A DNA stretch of 36,731 nt from an uncultured Alphaproteobacteria bacterium (GTDB taxonomy: Bacteria; Pseudomonadota; Alphaproteobacteria; SP197), in assembly GCA_938048755.1 (NCBI GenBank), contig CALIUG010000167.1, positions 1 through 36,731 of the forward strand, read 5' to 3'. Below are positions 7,022-36,731 of the stretch, piece after piece; position 1 is the first letter of the stretch; every line of letters starts with the position of its first letter. The position numbers and the translations under genes are program-made. Below the pieces are notes generated by a model. It ran no database searches, was not told the DNA's origin, and saw only the letters and a list, made by a program, of their open reading frames with translations.

Positions 7022-7273
7022 CCTCAGTCGCCGGCACTCGCTCCGCTCGTTTGGCTTCCGCCGCATGCGCGGCGCCGGTGCGGTCGCACCGGTCGGCGGC
7101 CGCTTCGCTCTCGCCGCCGAATGCCTGTTCACCAGCAGTGCAAGGGGCGTCCCACAAACAGCTCAGGTGGCGCGTCCATGGGGAGGCCCGCTTGGGCCGA
7201 CGGGGAGCAACTGCGACCCCGCGTCGCCAGGCGCGAAAGCCAAGCATGCGGAGCATGCGCCCGGCGCTTGAGG
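7022..7273 (-). repeat. 252-bp palindromic repeat, copy A, in the infB-rbfA gap
   Basis: This non-coding block nearly fills the 288-bp space between infB and rbfA. It is the same length as the copy at 18927-19178 and aligns with it end to end, in opposite orientation within the window. It begins CCTCAGTCGCCGG and ends CCGGCGCTTGAGG. The arms (7022-7057 and 7237-7273) share the repeat's outer and inner ends, but their centres differ: one contains GCATGC-TCC-GCATGC (read on the minus strand), the other ACTCGC-TCC-GCTCGT. The core at 7074-7222 can form several hairpins, including CCGGTGCG/CGCACCGG and TCGGCGGC/GCCGCCGA. No transposase is linked to it. Confidence 0.85.
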
Positions 7274-13265: not shown

Positions 13266-13895
13266 ATGACACCCGATGACGCGACGGCACTGAACCAGAA
13301 TCCCCACGGCACGCCCGATGATGAACGCGACCTTGAGGCAGCGATCGGTGCCCAGGTCCGCACGCAACGCAAGAAACTGGGTATGACCGTGGGCGAACTG
13401 GCCTCCCTGGCGGGTCTTTCCGCGGGCATGCTCTCGAAGATCGAAAACGGCCTGACGTCACCTTCCCTGACGACGTTGAAGGGGCTGGCCATGGCGCTCA
13501 ACGTGCCGTTCACCGCGCTTTTCCAGCGATTCGAGGAGCAGCGTGACGCCAGCCATGTCAAATCCGGCGAAGGGCTCAAGATCGAGCGGCGCGGGACGCG
13601 TGCGGGTCATCAATATGCCCTGCTGGGGCACGGCGTGCACAAACAGGTCGCGGTCGAACCCTACATGATCACCCTGACCCATGAGTCCGAGGTTTTCCCC
13701 CTGTTCCAGCATGACGGCCAGGAGTTTCTCTATGTCGTTGATGGCGCGATGGACTACCGCCATGGCGGTCGCAGTTACCGCATGGACCCTGGCGATTCGC
13801 TCTTCTTTGATGCCGATGCGCCACACGGCCCCGAGACTCTGCATGATGTGCCGGTCCGGTTTCTCAGCGTGATCGTCTATCCGCGCGGAGAGTAG
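13266..13895 (+). CDS. XRE-family regulator with C-terminal cupin
   Basis: The 209-residue protein has a helix-turn-helix XRE domain at about residues 24-85 (IGAQVRTQRKKLGMTVGEL, then SAGMLSKIENGLTSPSL) and a cupin_2 beta-barrel at about 125-205 (HDGQEFLYVVDGAMDYRHG, DPGDSLFFDADAPHGPE). This class of one-component regulator binds DNA with the first domain and a small metabolite with the cupin. ATG 13266 has GAGG six bases ahead and was preferred to the upstream starts at 13212 and 13239. It converges on the PhyH gene with a 2-bp gap and may control that neighbouring operon, but this is inference. Confidence 0.9.
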   Translation: MTPDDATALNQNPHGTPDDERDLEAAIGAQVRTQRKKLGMTVGELASLAGLSAGMLSKIENGLTSPSLTTLKGLAMALNVPFTALFQRFEEQRDASHVKSGEGLKIERRGTRAGHQYALLGHGVHKQVAVEPYMITLTHESEVFPLFQHDGQEFLYVVDGAMDYRHGGRSYRMDPGDSLFFDADAPHGPETLHDVPVRFLSVIVYPRGE

Positions 13896-13897
13896 AG

Positions 13898-14725
13898 CTA
13901 GGCCGAAGCGCCCGCGTCAAACACTCTGGGAAAATACGCGCTGTCGATGGGGTCACCGGTCTTCAGGCCGCAGTCGGGGAAATCCGGTTCCATGACACCG
14001 GGACGTTCGATGTAGCGGCCGTCGTCGCCGACCCAGGTGCAGTTGGTCGCGCGGCGGCGGTGGGGTCCGGGGTTGCCGGGGGCGCCGTGCATGGTCATGC
14101 CGTGAAAGGCGAGCACGTCGCCGGGTTCCAGATCGAAGCTCACGATGTCGTCGGCGAAGGTCTGCTCGACATCGGGCGGGTCGAGATAGCCGTCATCGGC
14201 GCCTCGTCCGAAATCGGTGCCGTCGCGGAACTTGACGGGACGGAACGCCTTGCCCAGCAGGTGCGATCCCTTGACGCATTGCAGGCTGACCGAGGCCGGA
14301 CAGGGATCCAGCGGAGCCCACAACACGACAATCTGGCGACCTTCGACACAGTAATAGGGCTGGTCCTGGTGCCAGGTGCTGCGTTTTGTCACGCCGGGCT
14401 CCTTCACGAAAACGCCATCGAACAGGAAGTTCGCCTTCGTGGAGCGCATCAGCGCTGCACTCAGCTCGGCCGCCGGACCCTCCATGACGAACTTCCGGAT
14501 GTGGGGTGCACGTTTCCAGGCGATGTAGTCGGTGAAGAAGTCGGGCTCGCCCGCATCCTGAATGCGGCGCGTATAGCGGTCCGATGTCGTCATCGCCTCG
14601 TCCACACCCTGGCGCAGGACTTCGACCCAGTCGTCCTGATAGACGCCCTTCAGCGCCACAACGCCATCGGCCTCGAAGGTCGCGATTTCCTGTTCATCGG
14701 GAAGACGTAACGGCCGGTCGGGCAT
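13898..14725 (-). CDS. Phytanoyl-CoA dioxygenase (PhyH) family protein
   Basis: This is a non-haem Fe(II)/2-oxoglutarate dioxygenase. The metal triad can be placed at His119 and Asp121 (WHQDQPYY) and a distal His213 in LAFHGMTMHGAPGN, with Arg residues 223-225 available for the 2-oxoglutarate carboxylate. The 275-residue length is typical. ATG 14725 was taken because AAGGAGG lies 7 bases upstream; the frame extends further to 14746. The gene follows the M24-type gene by 27 bp on the same strand, so the two probably form an operon. Substrate unknown; the EctD signature is not present. Confidence 0.88.
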   Translation of the reverse strand: MPDRPLRLPDEQEIATFEADGVVALKGVYQDDWVEVLRQGVDEAMTTSDRYTRRIQDAGEPDFFTDYIAWKRAPHIRKFVMEGPAAELSAALMRSTKANFLFDGVFVKEPGVTKRSTWHQDQPYYCVEGRQIVVLWAPLDPCPASVSLQCVKGSHLLGKAFRPVKFRDGTDFGRGADDGYLDPPDVEQTFADDIVSFDLEPGDVLAFHGMTMHGAPGNPGPHRRRATNCTWVGDDGRYIERPGVMEPDFPDCGLKTGDPIDSAYFPRVFDAGASA

Positions 14726-18856: not shown

Positions 18857-18926
18857 GGTTGGATGTTTCCCTGTTGGTGACTGATGTTGTTGATCGTGGC
18901 GTGTTGAACGCGGTTTGTTTGTTTAG

Positions 18927-19178
18927 CCTCAAGCGCCGGCGTTCACTCCGTTCACTTGGCTTACGCCGCATGCGCGGCGGGGTCGCGGTCGCTCCCCGTC
19001 GGCCCAAGTGGGCCTCCCCATGGACGTACTGCCTGAGTTACTTGTGACGGGCCTCCTGCGCCACTGGTGAGCAGGCAATCGGCGGCGAGAGCGCAGCGGC
19101 CGCCGACCGGTGCGACCGCACCGGCGGGCCGGTCAGGCCCGGAAGCCAAGTGAACGGAGTGAACGCCGGCGCCTGAGG
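18927..19178 (+). repeat. 252-bp palindromic repeat, copy B
   Basis: The gap 18857-19196 holds this second full copy, which has the same length as copy A. Its 36-bp ends (18927-18962 and 19143-19178) are inverted repeats with one mismatch and contain GTTCAC-TCC-GTTCAC. Inside are sub-terminal hairpins (CCGC-ATGC-GCGG at one end, GGCC-based at the other), then the shared core at 18977-19125. Flanks also match: TTTGTTTAG on the left and GGAACAAAG on the right, so the inverted repeat may extend to about 45 bp. No reading frame inside is conserved between copies. Confidence 0.88.
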
Positions 19179-19196
19179 GAACAAAGATCAAGACTC

Positions 19197-20612: not shown

Positions 20613-20641
20613 TTGGATAAGGCGGGGCGACCGTGTTAAGC
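20613..20641 (+). promoter_or_regulatory. Possible promoter of the bluB riboswitch transcript
   Basis: TTGGAT and TTAAGC are 17 bp apart and predict a start near 20648, which is where the aptamer begins. That agreement supports a modest consensus match. Confidence 0.4.
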
Positions 20642-20646
20642 GATCT

Positions 20647-21568
<922 letters not shown>

Positions 21569-30832: not shown

Positions 30833-32773
<1,941 letters not shown>

Positions 32774-32835
32774 CTGGCCTGTCTCCCCACACGGTTCCTG
32801 ATCCGCTCGCCTGAAACGCGAGTCGTTATGCTCTT

Positions 32836-32864
32836 ATTGTCACCACATTGATGCCGGCCCGCAA
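32836..32864 (-). promoter_or_regulatory. Possible promoter of acs
   Basis: On the minus strand TTGCGG is followed after 17 bp by GACAAT, placing a start about 55 bp before the acs ATG. Confidence 0.4.
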
Positions 32865-32872
32865 CACGCCGA

Positions 32873-33235
32873 TCACGCGTTCTGCCTGCGTTTCAGGCGT
32901 TTGATCACGCCGGCGCAGGAGAGGACCGGATGGCCGTCAACCTCCAGGACCGCCCGCATGAACACAAAGCTGTTGGTGCGCCGCAGGATTTCCGGCCGGG
33001 TTTCGATCAGGGCGCCCTTATGGACTGCTGCAAGAAACTCCGACGAGAACGATATGGTGAGTGGTGCCTCTTGCGGGTAACCGCGAACGGCTTCCGCGCA
33101 GATGGCAAAGTCGGCAAAGGTCATCAGGGCACCGCCATGGATCGCGCCGCCGGCATTGGCATGGTCGGCCTCCATGCGGAACGCATAGGTTCTCTCCTCA
33201 CCCGTGTCGCGGGCATAAAACGGCCCGGTCTTCAT
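32873..33235 (-). CDS. PaaI/hotdog thioesterase, 5' end interrupted by a stop
   Basis: The intact frame encodes 120 residues of a PaaI-type thioesterase: HANAGGAIHGGALMTFADFA has the conserved HGG and the catalytic Asp, and TISFSSEFLAAVHKGALIETRPEIL and RRTNSFVFMRA complete the hotdog fold. The frame opens at an internal Met. In family members, about 19 more residues stand before this point; they can be read upstream as MSSAMPEGF, a TAA stop, then ILDPDDPFE. So the gene appears broken at codon 10, unless translation begins at ATG 33235. The upstream ATG 33292 has the strong GGAG site; ATG 33235 has none that is clear. Confidence 0.8.
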   Translation of the reverse strand: MKTGPFYARDTGEERTYAFRMEADHANAGGAIHGGALMTFADFAICAEAVRGYPQEAPLTISFSSEFLAAVHKGALIETRPEILRRTNSFVFMRAVLEVDGHPVLSCAGVIKRLKRRQNA

Positions 33236-33292
33236 CTCGAAGGGATCGTCGGGATCCAGGATTTAGAACCCTTCGGGCATGGCTGAGGACAT
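33236..33292 (-). other. 5' remnant of the PaaI thioesterase gene with in-frame TAA
   Basis: Nine sense codons from ATG 33292 (MSSAMPEGF) are followed by TAA at 33265-33263, then ILDPDDPFE in the same frame running into the intact part. PEGF and the DPF segment are typical of this family's N-terminus. A GGAG site lies ahead of 33292. A single base change from AAA would give the stop. Confidence 0.7.
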
Positions 33293-33379
33293 CGTTGATC
33301 TCCGGGATAGGTTTCGGTTGTTCGTGGGCATCGGCACGGGTTGCCATTAGGCTTGCGCTTTCGCATGAGGGAGAAGGCC

Positions 33380-34126
33380 ATGCAACTGCAACAAGCGACC
33401 TGGCAGGAGGTCGAGCGTTACCTCCAGACCTCCACCGGCATCATCATGCCCATCGGCTCGGCCGAACAGCATGGGCCCAACGGCATGATCGGTACCGATG
33501 CAATCTGCCCCGAGGTTATTGCCAGGGGCCTGGGCGAGGCTGCCGGCGCCATGGTGGCTCCGACTATTTCTGTGGGCATCGCCCAGCATCATCTGGGTTT
33601 TGCAGGCTCGATGTGCCTGCGCCCCTCGACCCTGATTGCACTCATGCGCGACTACATCGTCTCCCTGTCGCGTCACGGGTTCGACCGGTTCTTCTTCCTG
33701 AACGGCCATGGCGGCAACATCGCCACGGTGCATGCCGCCTTTGCCGAAGTGCATTCGGAAGTCTCGATGCTGACGCGCGAAGCCGCGCGTCCGATCCGCT
33801 GCACGTTGTCGAACTGGTGGGATTCCAAGGGCGTGCAGAAAATCAGCAAGGAACTCTATGGCGATGACGAGGGCCAGCACGCGACCTGCAGCGAGGTTTC
33901 CGTGACTCAGTTCGCCTATCCTGACATGATCAAGAATGCCAATTTCGAGGGTCGTGCACCGGCCTATAGCGGCATTCACGATGCCGATGATTATCGCCGC
34001 CGTTATCCCGACGGCCGCATCGGCAGCCTGCCGTCGCTTTCGACCCCCGAGGCCGGAAAGCGGCTCTATGACGCGTCGATCAATGACTTGAAAGATACCT
34101 ACCGTACTTTTATGACAGAAGACTGA
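33380..34126 (+). CDS. Creatininase-family amidohydrolase
   Basis: The 248-residue product has the ligands of this fold: Glu29, His31 and Asp40 (GSAEQHGPN, then GTDAICPE), His110 in FFLNGHGGN and Glu172 in CSEVSVTQ. The family includes creatininase, formamide hydrolases of riboflavin and F420 biosynthesis, and mycofactocin-maturation proteases. The GSAEQHGP and NGHGGN motifs are general to it. ATG 33380 has AGGGAGAAGG just upstream; the frame is open to 33341. No creatine-metabolism or mycofactocin genes are nearby, so the substrate is open. Confidence 0.88.
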   Translation: MQLQQATWQEVERYLQTSTGIIMPIGSAEQHGPNGMIGTDAICPEVIARGLGEAAGAMVAPTISVGIAQHHLGFAGSMCLRPSTLIALMRDYIVSLSRHGFDRFFFLNGHGGNIATVHAAFAEVHSEVSMLTREAARPIRCTLSNWWDSKGVQKISKELYGDDEGQHATCSEVSVTQFAYPDMIKNANFEGRAPAYSGIHDADDYRRRYPDGRIGSLPSLSTPEAGKRLYDASINDLKDTYRTFMTED

Positions 34127-34162
34127 ATTTCAAAAGAGCGCTTAACTTTAGGAACAACTCAA

Positions 34163-34306
34163 ATGACAGATTCATCCCTTACGCGCCGTAACCTTTGTTG
34201 CGGCGTTGCCGCTGCTGCTGCTGCGGTAACCGCTGTTTCCGTATCGAACTAGGCGCAGGCGCAGGCCAACGCGTGCACCGCCTATACCTCGCAGCGCCAG
34301 CAGGCC
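34163..34306 (+). other. Tat signal peptide of the carbonic anhydrase, interrupted by TAG
   Basis: ATG 34163 opens a frame reading MTDSSLTRRNLCCGV, a run of Ala, then VTAVSVSN, a TAG at 34250-34252, and AQAQANACTAYTSQRQQA into the intact enzyme. TRRNLC is a twin-arginine motif, followed by a hydrophobic core and an AQA cleavage site. A CAG to TAG change would make the stop, as SNQAQAQA would be a natural reading. Confidence 0.75.
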
Positions 34307-34888
34307 ATGAGCCCGGCTGAAGCGATCGAGGAATTGCGGCGTGGCAACGCGCGCTTTCTCAACAACCAGTCGGTTCATTGCGACCTGCTCGAGCAGGTCC
34401 ACATGACCAGTGCCGGTCAGGCGCCGTTTGCGGCCGTCGTGGGTTGCATGGATTCGCGGGTGCCGCCCGAACTGGTGTTCGACCAGCAGATCGGCAGCAT
34501 TTTTTCCATCCGCATCGCCGGCAATTATGTCGACCCCAGCATTACAGGCGGTCTTGAATTTGCCACAGCGGTCGTGGGCACACGCGCCATTCTGGTGCTG
34601 GGTCATACAGGCTGCGGTGCGATCCGTGGCGCCATCGACGATGTCGAACTGGGCAACCTCACCACCACGCTGGCCCATCTGACGCCTGCGGTTGAAGCAG
34701 CCGGTGCGGTTGGCGCCGACAGCGCCGACAGCAACGTCATGTGGGACGTCGCGGCAGAGAACGTGCGCCTCGGCATGGCCTCGCTCACCGACAACAGCGC
34801 GATCCTGGCCGAGCAGGTCGCCAAGGGTGACCTCCTGATCGCCGGCGCCATGCACGATGTCGCCAACGGTCAGGTCACGTTCCTCTGA
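34307..34888 (+). CDS. Beta-class carbonic anhydrase, 5' end interrupted
   Basis: The enzyme interconverts CO2 and bicarbonate. The 193-residue intact frame has the zinc ligands Cys47 in VVGCMDSRVPPELVF, with the Asp49/Arg51 dyad, and His100 and Cys103 in LGHTGCGA. NYVDPSITGGLEFA is also typical. The full gene seems to begin at 34163 with a Tat signal, but a TAG cuts it. If translation starts again at ATG 34307 the enzyme would stay in the cytoplasm, lacking its export signal. Whether that happens is not known. Confidence 0.88.
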   Translation: MSPAEAIEELRRGNARFLNNQSVHCDLLEQVHMTSAGQAPFAAVVGCMDSRVPPELVFDQQIGSIFSIRIAGNYVDPSITGGLEFATAVVGTRAILVLGHTGCGAIRGAIDDVELGNLTTTLAHLTPAVEAAGAVGADSADSNVMWDVAAENVRLGMASLTDNSAILAEQVAKGDLLIAGAMHDVANGQVTFL

Positions 34889-35017
34889 CCGGAGCTGCCA
34901 GAAGCCATGCATGCGGGGAGGCAGGAATGTCTCCCCGTTTGTTGTTGCAGCTGGCCGCAACAGGTTTCACGCCATGACAATCCGCTCTATGGTCCAGCCA
35001 CCATTCCAGGAGGGAAC

Positions 35018-36559
35018 ATGAACGGAGCTGAAAGCCTTGTGCGCACGCTGGTCGAAGGGGACGTCGATGTCTGCTTCACCAACCCCGGCACCTCGGAAAT
35101 GCATTTCTGTGCCGCGCTCGACCGGGTCGATGGCATGCGTTGTATCCTGGGCCTGTTCGAAGGTGTCGTGACCGGCGCTGCCGATGGCTATGGCCGCATG
35201 ATGGACAAGCCTGCGGCGACTCTGCTTCACACCGGCCCCGGACTCGGTAACGGCGTGGCCAACCTGCACAACGCAAAGAAGGCCAAGACGCCCATCGTCA
35301 ACATCGTGGGCGAACACGCGACCTATCACATTGCCCATGACGCGCCGCTGACCGCCGATATCGAGGCCATCGCATGGCCGGTTTCCCACTGGGTCAAGAC
35401 CTCGGCCGATGCTCCCTCAGTCGCCGTGGATGGCGCCCAGGCCATTGCCGAGGCAAAGACGGCGCCTGGCCGCATTGCTACGTTGATCCTTCCTGCCGAC
35501 ACCGCCTGGAACGAGGCGCAGGGAACCGCAAAGGTCCCTGATGTACCGCCTCCCGGTTCCGTGACCGAAGGCGCGGTGCGTGATTGCGCCGATGCCCTGC
35601 GTTCGGGCGAACCCGCGATGATCGTGGTCGGTCACCGTGGCCTGCGCGCCGATGCGCTTGAGATCGCCGGACGCATCGCGGCCAAGACGGGTGCCGAGAT
35701 CCGCACCGAATTTGCTGCCGCTCGTGCCGAGCGCGGCGCGGGGCAGGTCACACCCGAACGTATGCCCTATGTCGTGGACCAGGCGTTGGCGGTTACGAAG
35801 GACGTGCGCCACATGATCCTGATCGGGGCCAAGACGCCGGTTGCGTTTTTCGCCTATCCCGACAAACCCAGCGTCCTGATTCCAGATACCTGCCAGACCC
35901 ATCTTCTGGCATCGGCCGAAGAAGACATCATGGGCGCGCTGGAATGGCTCGCCGACGAGCTGGATGCCGGGAACGCCGAGCCGGTGCGTGAAGCAGCACA
36001 ACGCCCGGATCTGCAGACCGGCGACCTCACCATCGACACCATCGCCAGCGCGATCGGCCATCTGATGCCGGAAGGCTGCATTGTGTCGGATGAGGCGATC
36101 ACGTCGGGGCGCATGCTGCATCCCTTCACCAAGGGTTGCCCGCCCCATGACTGGCTGTTCGGCACCGGCGGCTCCATCGGGCGCGCCCTGCCCGAAGCAA
36201 CCGGCGCGGCTGTGGCCTGCCCGGACCGCAAGGTGCTCTGCATCTCCGGTGACGGCAGCGCGATGTACACGCTTCAGGGGTTGTGGACCCAGGCGCGCGA
36301 AAATCTGGATGTGGTCACGGTGATCTATGCCAACCGCACTTATGCCATCCTGCATGGCGAGCTCAGGAACGTGGGTGCCAATCCCGGTCCCAAGGCCCAT
36401 GATATGTTCGACCTCGACCGCCCCAACCTCGATTGGGTCGCCATGGCCAACGGCATGGGCGTGGAAGCCACGCGGGTCGACACCTCCGAAGGGTTCAACC
36501 GCGCACTGGCGGCCGCCTTCAACAGCAAGGGCCCGTTCCTGATCGAAGCGGTGGTTTAA
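35018..36559 (+). CDS. ThDP-dependent enzyme of the acetolactate-synthase/decarboxylase family
   Basis: The 513-residue protein has the N-terminal pyrimidine-binding domain with catalytic Glu48 in GLFEGVVTGAADGYGRM, a central domain, and a C-terminal diphosphate domain with the GDGSAMYTLQGLW motif (411-423) and its partner Asn439. GTSEMHF near residue 24 is the common N-terminal marking. It is related to IlvB, benzoylformate decarboxylase and oxalyl-CoA decarboxylase. The FAD-binding region of true acetolactate synthase is not clear. AGGAGGG stands 4 bases before ATG 35018, and no small IlvN subunit lies next to it. Substrate unknown. Confidence 0.88.
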   Translation: MNGAESLVRTLVEGDVDVCFTNPGTSEMHFCAALDRVDGMRCILGLFEGVVTGAADGYGRMMDKPAATLLHTGPGLGNGVANLHNAKKAKTPIVNIVGEHATYHIAHDAPLTADIEAIAWPVSHWVKTSADAPSVAVDGAQAIAEAKTAPGRIATLILPADTAWNEAQGTAKVPDVPPPGSVTEGAVRDCADALRSGEPAMIVVGHRGLRADALEIAGRIAAKTGAEIRTEFAAARAERGAGQVTPERMPYVVDQALAVTKDVRHMILIGAKTPVAFFAYPDKPSVLIPDTCQTHLLASAEEDIMGALEWLADELDAGNAEPVREAAQRPDLQTGDLTIDTIASAIGHLMPEGCIVSDEAITSGRMLHPFTKGCPPHDWLFGTGGSIGRALPEATGAAVACPDRKVLCISGDGSAMYTLQGLWTQARENLDVVTVIYANRTYAILHGELRNVGANPGPKAHDMFDLDRPNLDWVAMANGMGVEATRVDTSEGFNRALAAAFNSKGPFLIEAVV

Positions 36560-36574
36560 GGAAGGTTTGTTCAG

Positions 36575-36620
36575 CCTCAAACGCCGCCGAATGCCTGCTC
36601 ACCGGCGGTGCAGGGTGCCC
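36575..36620 (+). repeat. Truncated copy C of the palindromic repeat
   Basis: The end TTTGTTCAGCCTCAAACGCC matches the left terminus of copies A and B, but then jumps into their inner core (CGCCGCCGAATGCCTGCTCACC), followed by a GTGCAGGGTGCCC stretch also found in them. Most of the element is missing, so this is a deleted remnant. Confidence 0.75.
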
Positions 36621-36640
36621 ATTGCTACGATCACTCCTCT

Positions 36641-36731
36641 GTCATCCCGGCCTTGAGCCGGGATCCCGGTCCGCACGTTGCCTTTGAAACCCGTCATGAC
36701 GAGATCCCGGATAACCGCTGTGCGGTTTCCG
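36641..36731. repeat. REP-like palindrome, cut by the window end
   Basis: ATCCCGGC-CTTGA-GCCGGGAT (36644-36664) is a perfect 8-bp stem with a 5-base loop. A second arm, starting GAGATCCCGGATAACCGC at 36701, is followed by TGT and GCGGTTTCCG, where the window ends. This type of paired GTCATCCCGG repeat is widespread in alphaproteobacterial genomes. Confidence 0.7.

Follow-up and report, generated by a model that had tools for sequence, protein, structure and literature searches.

A REP/BIME-like, three-hairpin repeat with covarying stems, present singly, in arrays and as inverted dimers near gene 3´ ends in Alphaproteobacteria

Two complete 252-bp palindromes (A and B) and one partial palindrome (C) lie in a stretch of 36,731 nt from an uncultured alphaproteobacterium (the window), and all three are probably copies of a REP/BIME-like, non-autonomous structured repeat that is spread by a trans-acting factor and homogenised by conversion through its inverted arms. 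The repeat is present in many copies, its hairpins covary, it sits at gene 3´ ends, it is present at some sites and absent from the same sites in relatives, and sites shared between genomes hold exchanged, often inverted cores. A preliminary description of the sequence had offered a MITE-like element moved in trans, a REP-like element or a structured RNA; overall, that interpretation found partial support, with the REP/MITE-like nature upheld and no Rfam family that fits.

Copies in the window and the architecture of the unit

Two units of ~75 nt, each with three hairpins and set in inverted orientation to each other, make up the element. Copy A and inverted copy B, each of 252 bp, align end to end with 204 of 255 positions identical (80%) and six gaps, and the ends of B are inverted repeats identical at 35 of 36 positions, confirming the equal lengths and the 36-bp inverted end of the preliminary description as well as its third, partial copy at 36575-36620. 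In folding, z relative to 200 shuffles each was -10.0 for B and -4.0 and -4.5 for the two strands of A. With B as the query (window 18920-19185), 104 alignments were obtained in its own genome (G000, 4.16 Mb in 301 contigs). The copies and their parts are listed below, with bit scores from R1, a covariance model of the unit for which up to 150 candidates were scored per genome.

7022..7273, minus strand: copy A, complete inverted dimer in the REP-free form, between infB (IF-2) and rbfA (both minus strand), 14 bp past the infB stop and 22 bp ahead of the rbfA start
7022..7095, minus strand: one unit of copy A (R1, 86.4 bits; in alignment A2)
7036..7050, minus strand: left GGA hairpin of copy A, plus strand ACTCGC-TCC-GCTCGT, purine strand with a tandem G.A centre
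7199..7273, plus strand: other unit of copy A (R1, 87.6 bits; in alignment A2)
7244..7258, plus strand: right GGA hairpin of copy A, GCATGC-GGA-GCATGC, all pairs Watson-Crick
18927..19178, plus strand: copy B, complete inverted dimer in the REP-free form, flanked on the minus strand by a methyltransferase-domain gene and a Pyridox_ox_2 gene, 18 bp past the upstream stop and 70 bp ahead of the next start
18927..19000, minus strand: left unit of copy B (R1, 87.3 bits)
18941..18955, minus strand: left GGA hairpin of copy B, plus strand GTTCAC-TCC-GTTCAC, purine strand with a tandem G.A centre
19104..19178, plus strand: right unit of copy B (R1, 83.1 bits), with hp b at 19107-19124 and the GGA hairpin at 19150-19164
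36575..36620, minus strand: copy C, partial, TIR start followed by a reverse-oriented part of the core
36640..36731, plus strand: TGTC-tagged REP sequence (the module found inside longer copies), running off the contig end; REP class as described in PMC3733652

Elsewhere in the window, positions 20637-20816 match the Cobalamin riboswitch at 103.5 bits.

On the purine-rich strand the unit consists of hp b (a stem closed by GACN), then hp a and AAGCCAAG, followed by a hairpin whose loop is GGA(U) and by CGCCCGGCG-NN-TGAGG; its conserved parts are GACN, AAGCCAAG, GGA and CGCCCGGCG-NN-TGAGG. Both arms of A and B follow one layout (hp b, hp a, AAGCCAA, GGA hairpin, GCC(C)GGCG-NN-TGAGG), and the end of the element reads GCCAA-N6-GGA-N6-GCC(C)GGCG-NN-TGAGG on that strand. 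In copy A, the unit at 7022..7095 is ordered as hp b (CCGGTGC-GACC-GCACCGG), hp a, AAGCCAA, GGA hairpin and GCCGGCG-AC-TGAGG, while the unit at 7199..7273 has a GGGG/CCCC-type hp b, then hp a, AAGCCAA, GCATGC-GGA-GCATGC and GCCCGGCG-CT-TGAGG. Copy C is a deletion form made up of the TIR start from 36575, a reversed piece of core (36582-36620) and TGTC-tagged REP sequence from ~36640 up to the contig end; its far end is unseen because the contig stops at 36731.

The preliminary description had taken the middle of the 36-bp end for a hexamer repeated directly around TCC. The letters that it gave hold for B and for the right end of A, but N6-GGA-N6 on the purine strand pairs with itself, forming a covarying hairpin that often has a tandem G.A centre. 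The direct repeat was ruled out by pair counts over 145 distinct arms, which hold 52 distinct hexamer pairs and whose commonest form, GTGAGC-GGA-GCGAAC (26 arms), has no direct repeat. Hexamer positions 1, 2 and 5 were paired in proportions of 0.87, 0.77 and 0.79, compared with shuffled means of 0.59, 0.50 and 0.51; position 6 is near-invariant and hence uninformative on pairing. The two centre positions were GA/GA in 98 arms, Watson-Crick at both (GT/AC, AT/AT, GC/GC or GA/TC) in 34, and neither in 13. GTTCAC-TCC-GTTCAC resembles a repeat only because the tandem G.A centre renders the hexamer nearly self-complementary. We take C-GGA-G to be a GNA-type loop, and a Py-GA-Pu context favours sheared pairs.

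Twenty copies were cut out and aligned, and the 18 besides A and B span 277-372 bp. Seventeen of the 20 contain an inner module, TGTCATCCCGG...CCGGGATGACAC, whose flanking sequences meet as ACCACC-TGAG in A and B. Going by its sequence and by the description in PMC3733652, this module is a head-to-head TGTC-tagged REP dimer, and it fits TGTC-AT; it is a separate module within the three-hairpin element. Other variants were also seen. Among copies of 277-313 bp in the sister species G008 (L080, L085, L086, L089, L090, L092 and L093), several have extra, partly repeated core sequence, as by internal duplication, and many copies in the genus (L058, L066, L083, L096 and others) have extra TIR-like ends ~32-44 bp outside, as if enclosed by smaller palindromes. 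Palindromes without a core were sought as targets in the sequences examined and none was found; the partial copies are single units.

Covariation and distribution of the unit

The pairing was evaluated with alignment A2, which comprises 56 of 62 arms picked for diversity out of 142 parsed (one false match was left out along with L012, L066, L072, L093 and the second arm of L165; eight arms were trimmed by eye at the 5´ end) and from which the structure itself was assigned. In A2, 85.3% of cells were paired, compared with 68.1% after shuffling, and covariation was 0.432, compared with 0.157 for shuffled alignments (reached in 0 of 500) and at most 0.084 when the structure was slid; both sides had changed in 15 of 19 pairs. 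For the class-wide alignment A3 (59 matches, 56 distinct), which is aligned to the model and so leans toward it, the values were 0.540 and 0.112 shuffled. A test of the GGA hairpin that is independent of the alignment gave 0.93 paired class-wide (37 of 40 parsed), compared with 0.624 and a shuffle maximum of 0.73 in 5000, and 0.735 in the genus (40 of 56 parsed), compared with 0.629 and a shuffle maximum of 0.68 in 5000. The genus hairpin scores weaker because tandem G.A centres are not counted as pairs; the lower score counts against our reading. Since compensatory changes exceed both shuffled and slid controls, the unit is a structured nucleic acid. The preliminary description had proposed a covariance-model search and named a lack of further copies or of common pairing as grounds for rejection; the opposite was found, namely many further copies with conserved pairing and compensatory changes in their stems.

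Hairpins could also persist through mutation rather than function, with template switching repairing imperfect palindromes and leaving covariation without selection. Both hp a and the GGA hairpin often form perfect palindromes, and chimeric hairpins occur (for example in L082). Part of the covariation could reflect such hairpin-templated correction, a point against our reading. Templated correction would erase the tandem G.A centres, however, and these persist in the 98 arms noted above; loops and unpaired segments are conserved as well. We find template switching very doubtful as the explanation.

Among ten congeners, R1 found units in six (71 in G000, 74 in G004, 61 in G008, 27 in G002, 6 in G003 and 4 in G009) and gave no match in G001, G005, G006 and G007. 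At E≤1e-4 it matched 18 of 240 genomes of the class, in 15 of 202 genera, with G000 and G003 of this genus among the 18. A second model, R2, built from the class-wide matches, detected the unit in 14 of 398 genomes of a phylum sample with an unstated share from other classes; all 14 are Alphaproteobacteria, though the unit may not be limited to that class. The exact core pattern was found in five of 61 relatives and, in a genome-contig collection where records very near the window may be absent, in only four named MAGs (25 stretches). That pattern had suggested a lineage-specific element, a restriction discarded when the structural model R1 matched across the class. The core had been described as the closely conserved, defining part. 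It is better conserved than the arms only within the genus, where the element is mainly an inverted dimer, CCTCA...TGAGG, of ~252 bp around a variable core; class-wide, the arms are preserved instead of the core, and the core found no support as the defining part.

In other alphaproteobacteria the unit occurs singly, in tandem arrays or in inverted dimers of 202-226 bp (~215 bp), the last with the CCTCA...TGAGG layout of the genus and different cores. A lone unit is common in distant genomes, with one more hairpin ahead of it (CCAA...TTGG) and another behind. Niveispirillum cyanobacteriorum TH16 (G188) carries 16 units on plasmid NZ_CP025613.1 and three on another plasmid, and the other named carriers are Sphingobium, Nitratireductor thuwali and Azospirillum lipoferum 4B. 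Three tandem units with a period of 103 bp were observed in genome G057 (L261, 457-733). Separately, a phage-like contig, IMGVR_UViG_2708742415_000004 (weak portal match, DNA polymerase A), has 25 unit matches over three non-overlapping stretches (L293, L310 and L312), and some of these matches follow one another as identical tandem repeats at periods of 108 and 116 bp. The core pattern had no match among viral contigs, and one dimer compared with phage records gave none.

Genomic context, turnover and exchange between relatives

Dispersed intergenic copies and their presence or absence between relatives, both anticipated in the preliminary description, were observed. The 36 complete copies in G000 and G008 lie between convergent (16), tandem (13) and divergent (7) genes, compared with 146, 505 and 148 gene pairs in the background (convergent 16/36 vs 146/799, Fisher p = 4e-4); stops lie a median of 43 bp away, and starts 155 bp. 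Without nine G008 copies at sites already counted in G000, the numbers are 13, 10 and 4 of 27 (convergent p = 5e-4). Class-wide, with gene calls that rest on the codon statistics of the window, 39 of 47 copies were classifiable, 20 of them convergent, 18 tandem (8 sense, 10 antisense) and one divergent. Inverted pairs or arrays, many copies and a location in gene 3´ regions make this a BIME-like organisation. Three units in 16S-23S spacers of rRNA operons (L265 1513-1583, L320 2487-2557 and L318 1501-1573), on Sphingobium and Nitratireductor plasmids, lie in the sense in which the operon is transcribed, before tRNA-Ile in Sphingobium and between tRNA-Ile and tRNA-Ala in Nitratireductor.

These spacer units, the placement at gene 3´ ends and the class-wide conservation of loops and single-stranded segments beside covarying stems are all consistent with a multi-copy structured RNA under host selection, such as a 3´ UTR element, an RNA-processing site or a sponge, in which a host factor binds the loops and AAGCCAAG/CGCCCGGCG. 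The absence of a strand preference in tandem gaps weakens a sense-RNA role and better suits a DNA element that 3´ ends tolerate. The four congeners without a match, arrays in which identical copies stand in tandem, and presence or absence at one and the same gap among relatives also argue against an RNA selected in the host, which we judge unlikely. Under the favoured reading of a mobile structured repeat, a transcribed hairpin cluster in a 3´ UTR or intercistronic gap would probably shield the upstream mRNA or limit readthrough, by analogy with what has been proposed for REPs.

Both window sites were compared between relatives. G000, G002 and G004 have a copy in the infB-rbfA gap and G008 has none, though the rbfA genes of G000 and G008 share 93% identity; the gap of copy B is filled in G000, G008 and G004, and in G003 the two genes overlap. 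Conversely, a 253-bp copy flanked by further partial ends in G008 (C2:80586-80838) is absent from the orthologous junction of the window, where convergent genes lie 2 bp apart (13895/13898, within 13893-13912). Five presence/absence sites were read, one of which (C218:15892) is no clean case, and they revealed no recognisable target-site duplication; short duplications may have been missed because the flanks have diverged. With inverted ends present and no duplication recognised at these sites, classical mobility of the MITE kind is at most a possibility, and the missing duplication also weighs against our reading.

Of 26 places with a core in the G000 sequence examined, 13 are sites with a core in the orthologous G008 gap and four are sites without one there (the rest are seven entries without an orthologous pair and one with short flanks; two L022 entries are one site). 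At the 13 shared sites the cores are inverted relative to each other in eight and in the same orientation in five, and the REP dimer is in the G000 copy only at nine, in both copies at three and in neither at one (B). Flanks of orthologous sites align at 78-99% identity. Core identity for orthologous compared with non-orthologous pairs was 0.828 vs 0.811 on the left and 0.857 vs 0.857 on the right (11 of the 13 sites). Although the flanks align, orthologous cores resemble each other little more than other core pairs do, which indicates that the sites were inherited and their contents exchanged. The arms gave a mixed picture, neither clearly following the core nor clearly staying with the flank. 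One shared site (C96/G008 C11) is near-identical and lies within recently shared DNA. As a separate observation, window positions 30833-36586 are 96% identical to G008 (99.5% in 35574-36528), compared with 78-95% in 1-kb windows elsewhere, from either recent exchange between species or mixed binning.

In the mechanism that we favour, a trans-acting factor would recognise the folded single strand and spread copies, and the two copies of a pair would then replace one another's sequence by gene conversion that starts in the inverted arms, as the comparison of two genomes suggests. The core brought in by such conversion could end up either way round, and gene conversion through inverted arms would account for exchange and random orientation together. 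The main alternative to conversion is that shared sites arose by independent insertion into the same gaps.

Candidate movers and relation to known repeats

The RAYT domain (Y1_Tnp, PF01797) was searched for twice, with the controls positive in 5 of 14 both times. The domain was found in none of ten congeners (three of the six carriers among them are just 90-93% complete) and in four of 12 distant carriers, the eight without it including the complete N. cyanobacteriorum. A GTAG tag was not seen by eye at unit ends in the alignments. A REP mobilised by a RAYT (Y1 HUH) transposase would share the design of small hairpin units, inverted dimers and gene 3´ ends, and according to PMC8266576 the target of TnpAREP is folded single-stranded DNA; given the distribution of PF01797 and the lack of a tag, we disfavour this mover as highly improbable. 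Reverse transcriptase was considered as the copying enzyme and rejected, as RVT_1 occurs in two of ten carriers and two of four non-carriers and is not tied to the element. A larger element with genes between half-copies was likewise rejected: L155, the one pair of half-copies read (1.4 kb apart), encloses a gene that by eye is no transposase. That neither PF01797 nor RVT_1 searches found a mover counts against our reading. The unit could instead be a MITE of a DDE transposon, a ~200-bp monomer whose ends resemble TAATACCAA...TTGGTATTA and may have a TA target duplication, and of which the genus dimer is a derivative. Inspection by eye showed such ends in copies from G026, G188 and G241, but genus copies and some other distant copies are without them and the five genus sites revealed no duplication, leaving a DDE MITE quite unlikely.

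Beyond the favoured reading of a repeat spread in trans and homogenised by conversion, we tentatively propose as a possibility that a three-hairpin family across the class spreads without RAYT, known to its mover as folded single strands (GNA-type loops, tandem G.A), and that facing units form a self-exchanging cassette in which sites may be fixed while cores are overwritten or flipped and REP dimers dock at one internal spot. The structural unit described here, for which genomes can be scanned with a covariance model, links scattered alphaproteobacterial palindromes to one another. Shared sites, exchanged or inverted cores and defined empty sites offer a natural system in which to test REP-like persistence and spread without RAYT, a question that PMC3733652 leaves open for CGTC REPs.

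In Rfam 15, no family reached its gathering score on the units, and B had no match at E≤1. Weak matches below the gathering score at E≤1 numbered four for L247 and 11 for L226, both single copies (best E 0.036, mir-186); the alphaproteobacterial ones, CC3552 (E 0.15) and Rhizobiales-2 (E 0.99), do not recur in a set of 16 loci that includes L226. The literature searched by sequence string and by topic, a scope outside which most subscription papers lie, held nothing recognisable as the unit. RIME1/2 of rhizobia and Bru-RS1/2 of Brucella are palindromic intergenic mosaics of ~100 bp. By partial description, not sequence, our element resembles them as a palindromic intergenic mosaic of alphaproteobacteria; R2 gave no match on S. 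meliloti pSymB, a replicon that may or may not hold RIMEs. REPINs and RAYT-mobilised REPs consist of hairpin units paired in inverted orientation, and such a pair acts as a non-autonomous element. The inverted pairing of hairpin units is shared with our element, whereas no Y1 transposase was found in this genus.

The closest likeness is to REP/BIME. According to Di Nocera et al. 2013 (PMC3733652), REPs of the GTAG and CGTC super-families are dispersed palindromes that form head-to-head dimers and follow genes in gaps of the convergent or unidirectional type, and an unpaired GTAG or CGTC/TGTC/CCTC motif marks one end of their 20-40 bp stem-loop. Most CGTC REPs belong to alphaproteobacteria and seem to have no transposase dedicated to them, and REP dimers are reported within larger palindromes in A. 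variabilis and H. neapolitanus. Dispersed palindromes, head-to-head dimers, gene 3´ ends and a REP dimer within a palindrome recur in our element. In contrast to the single stem of a 20-40 bp REP, the unit has ~75 nt and three hairpins; by eye it has no GTAG and lacks the AT-starting 8-9 bp stem. Its end, TGAGG, is CCTCA on the other strand, and CCTC is among the variant tags listed there (PMC3733652), yet neither a GTAG nor a CGTC tag was seen on the unit, and the TGTC-tagged REP dimer sits inside the element instead. The element, probably a new one, is laid out like REP/BIME repeats but departs from them in tag, size and RAYT.
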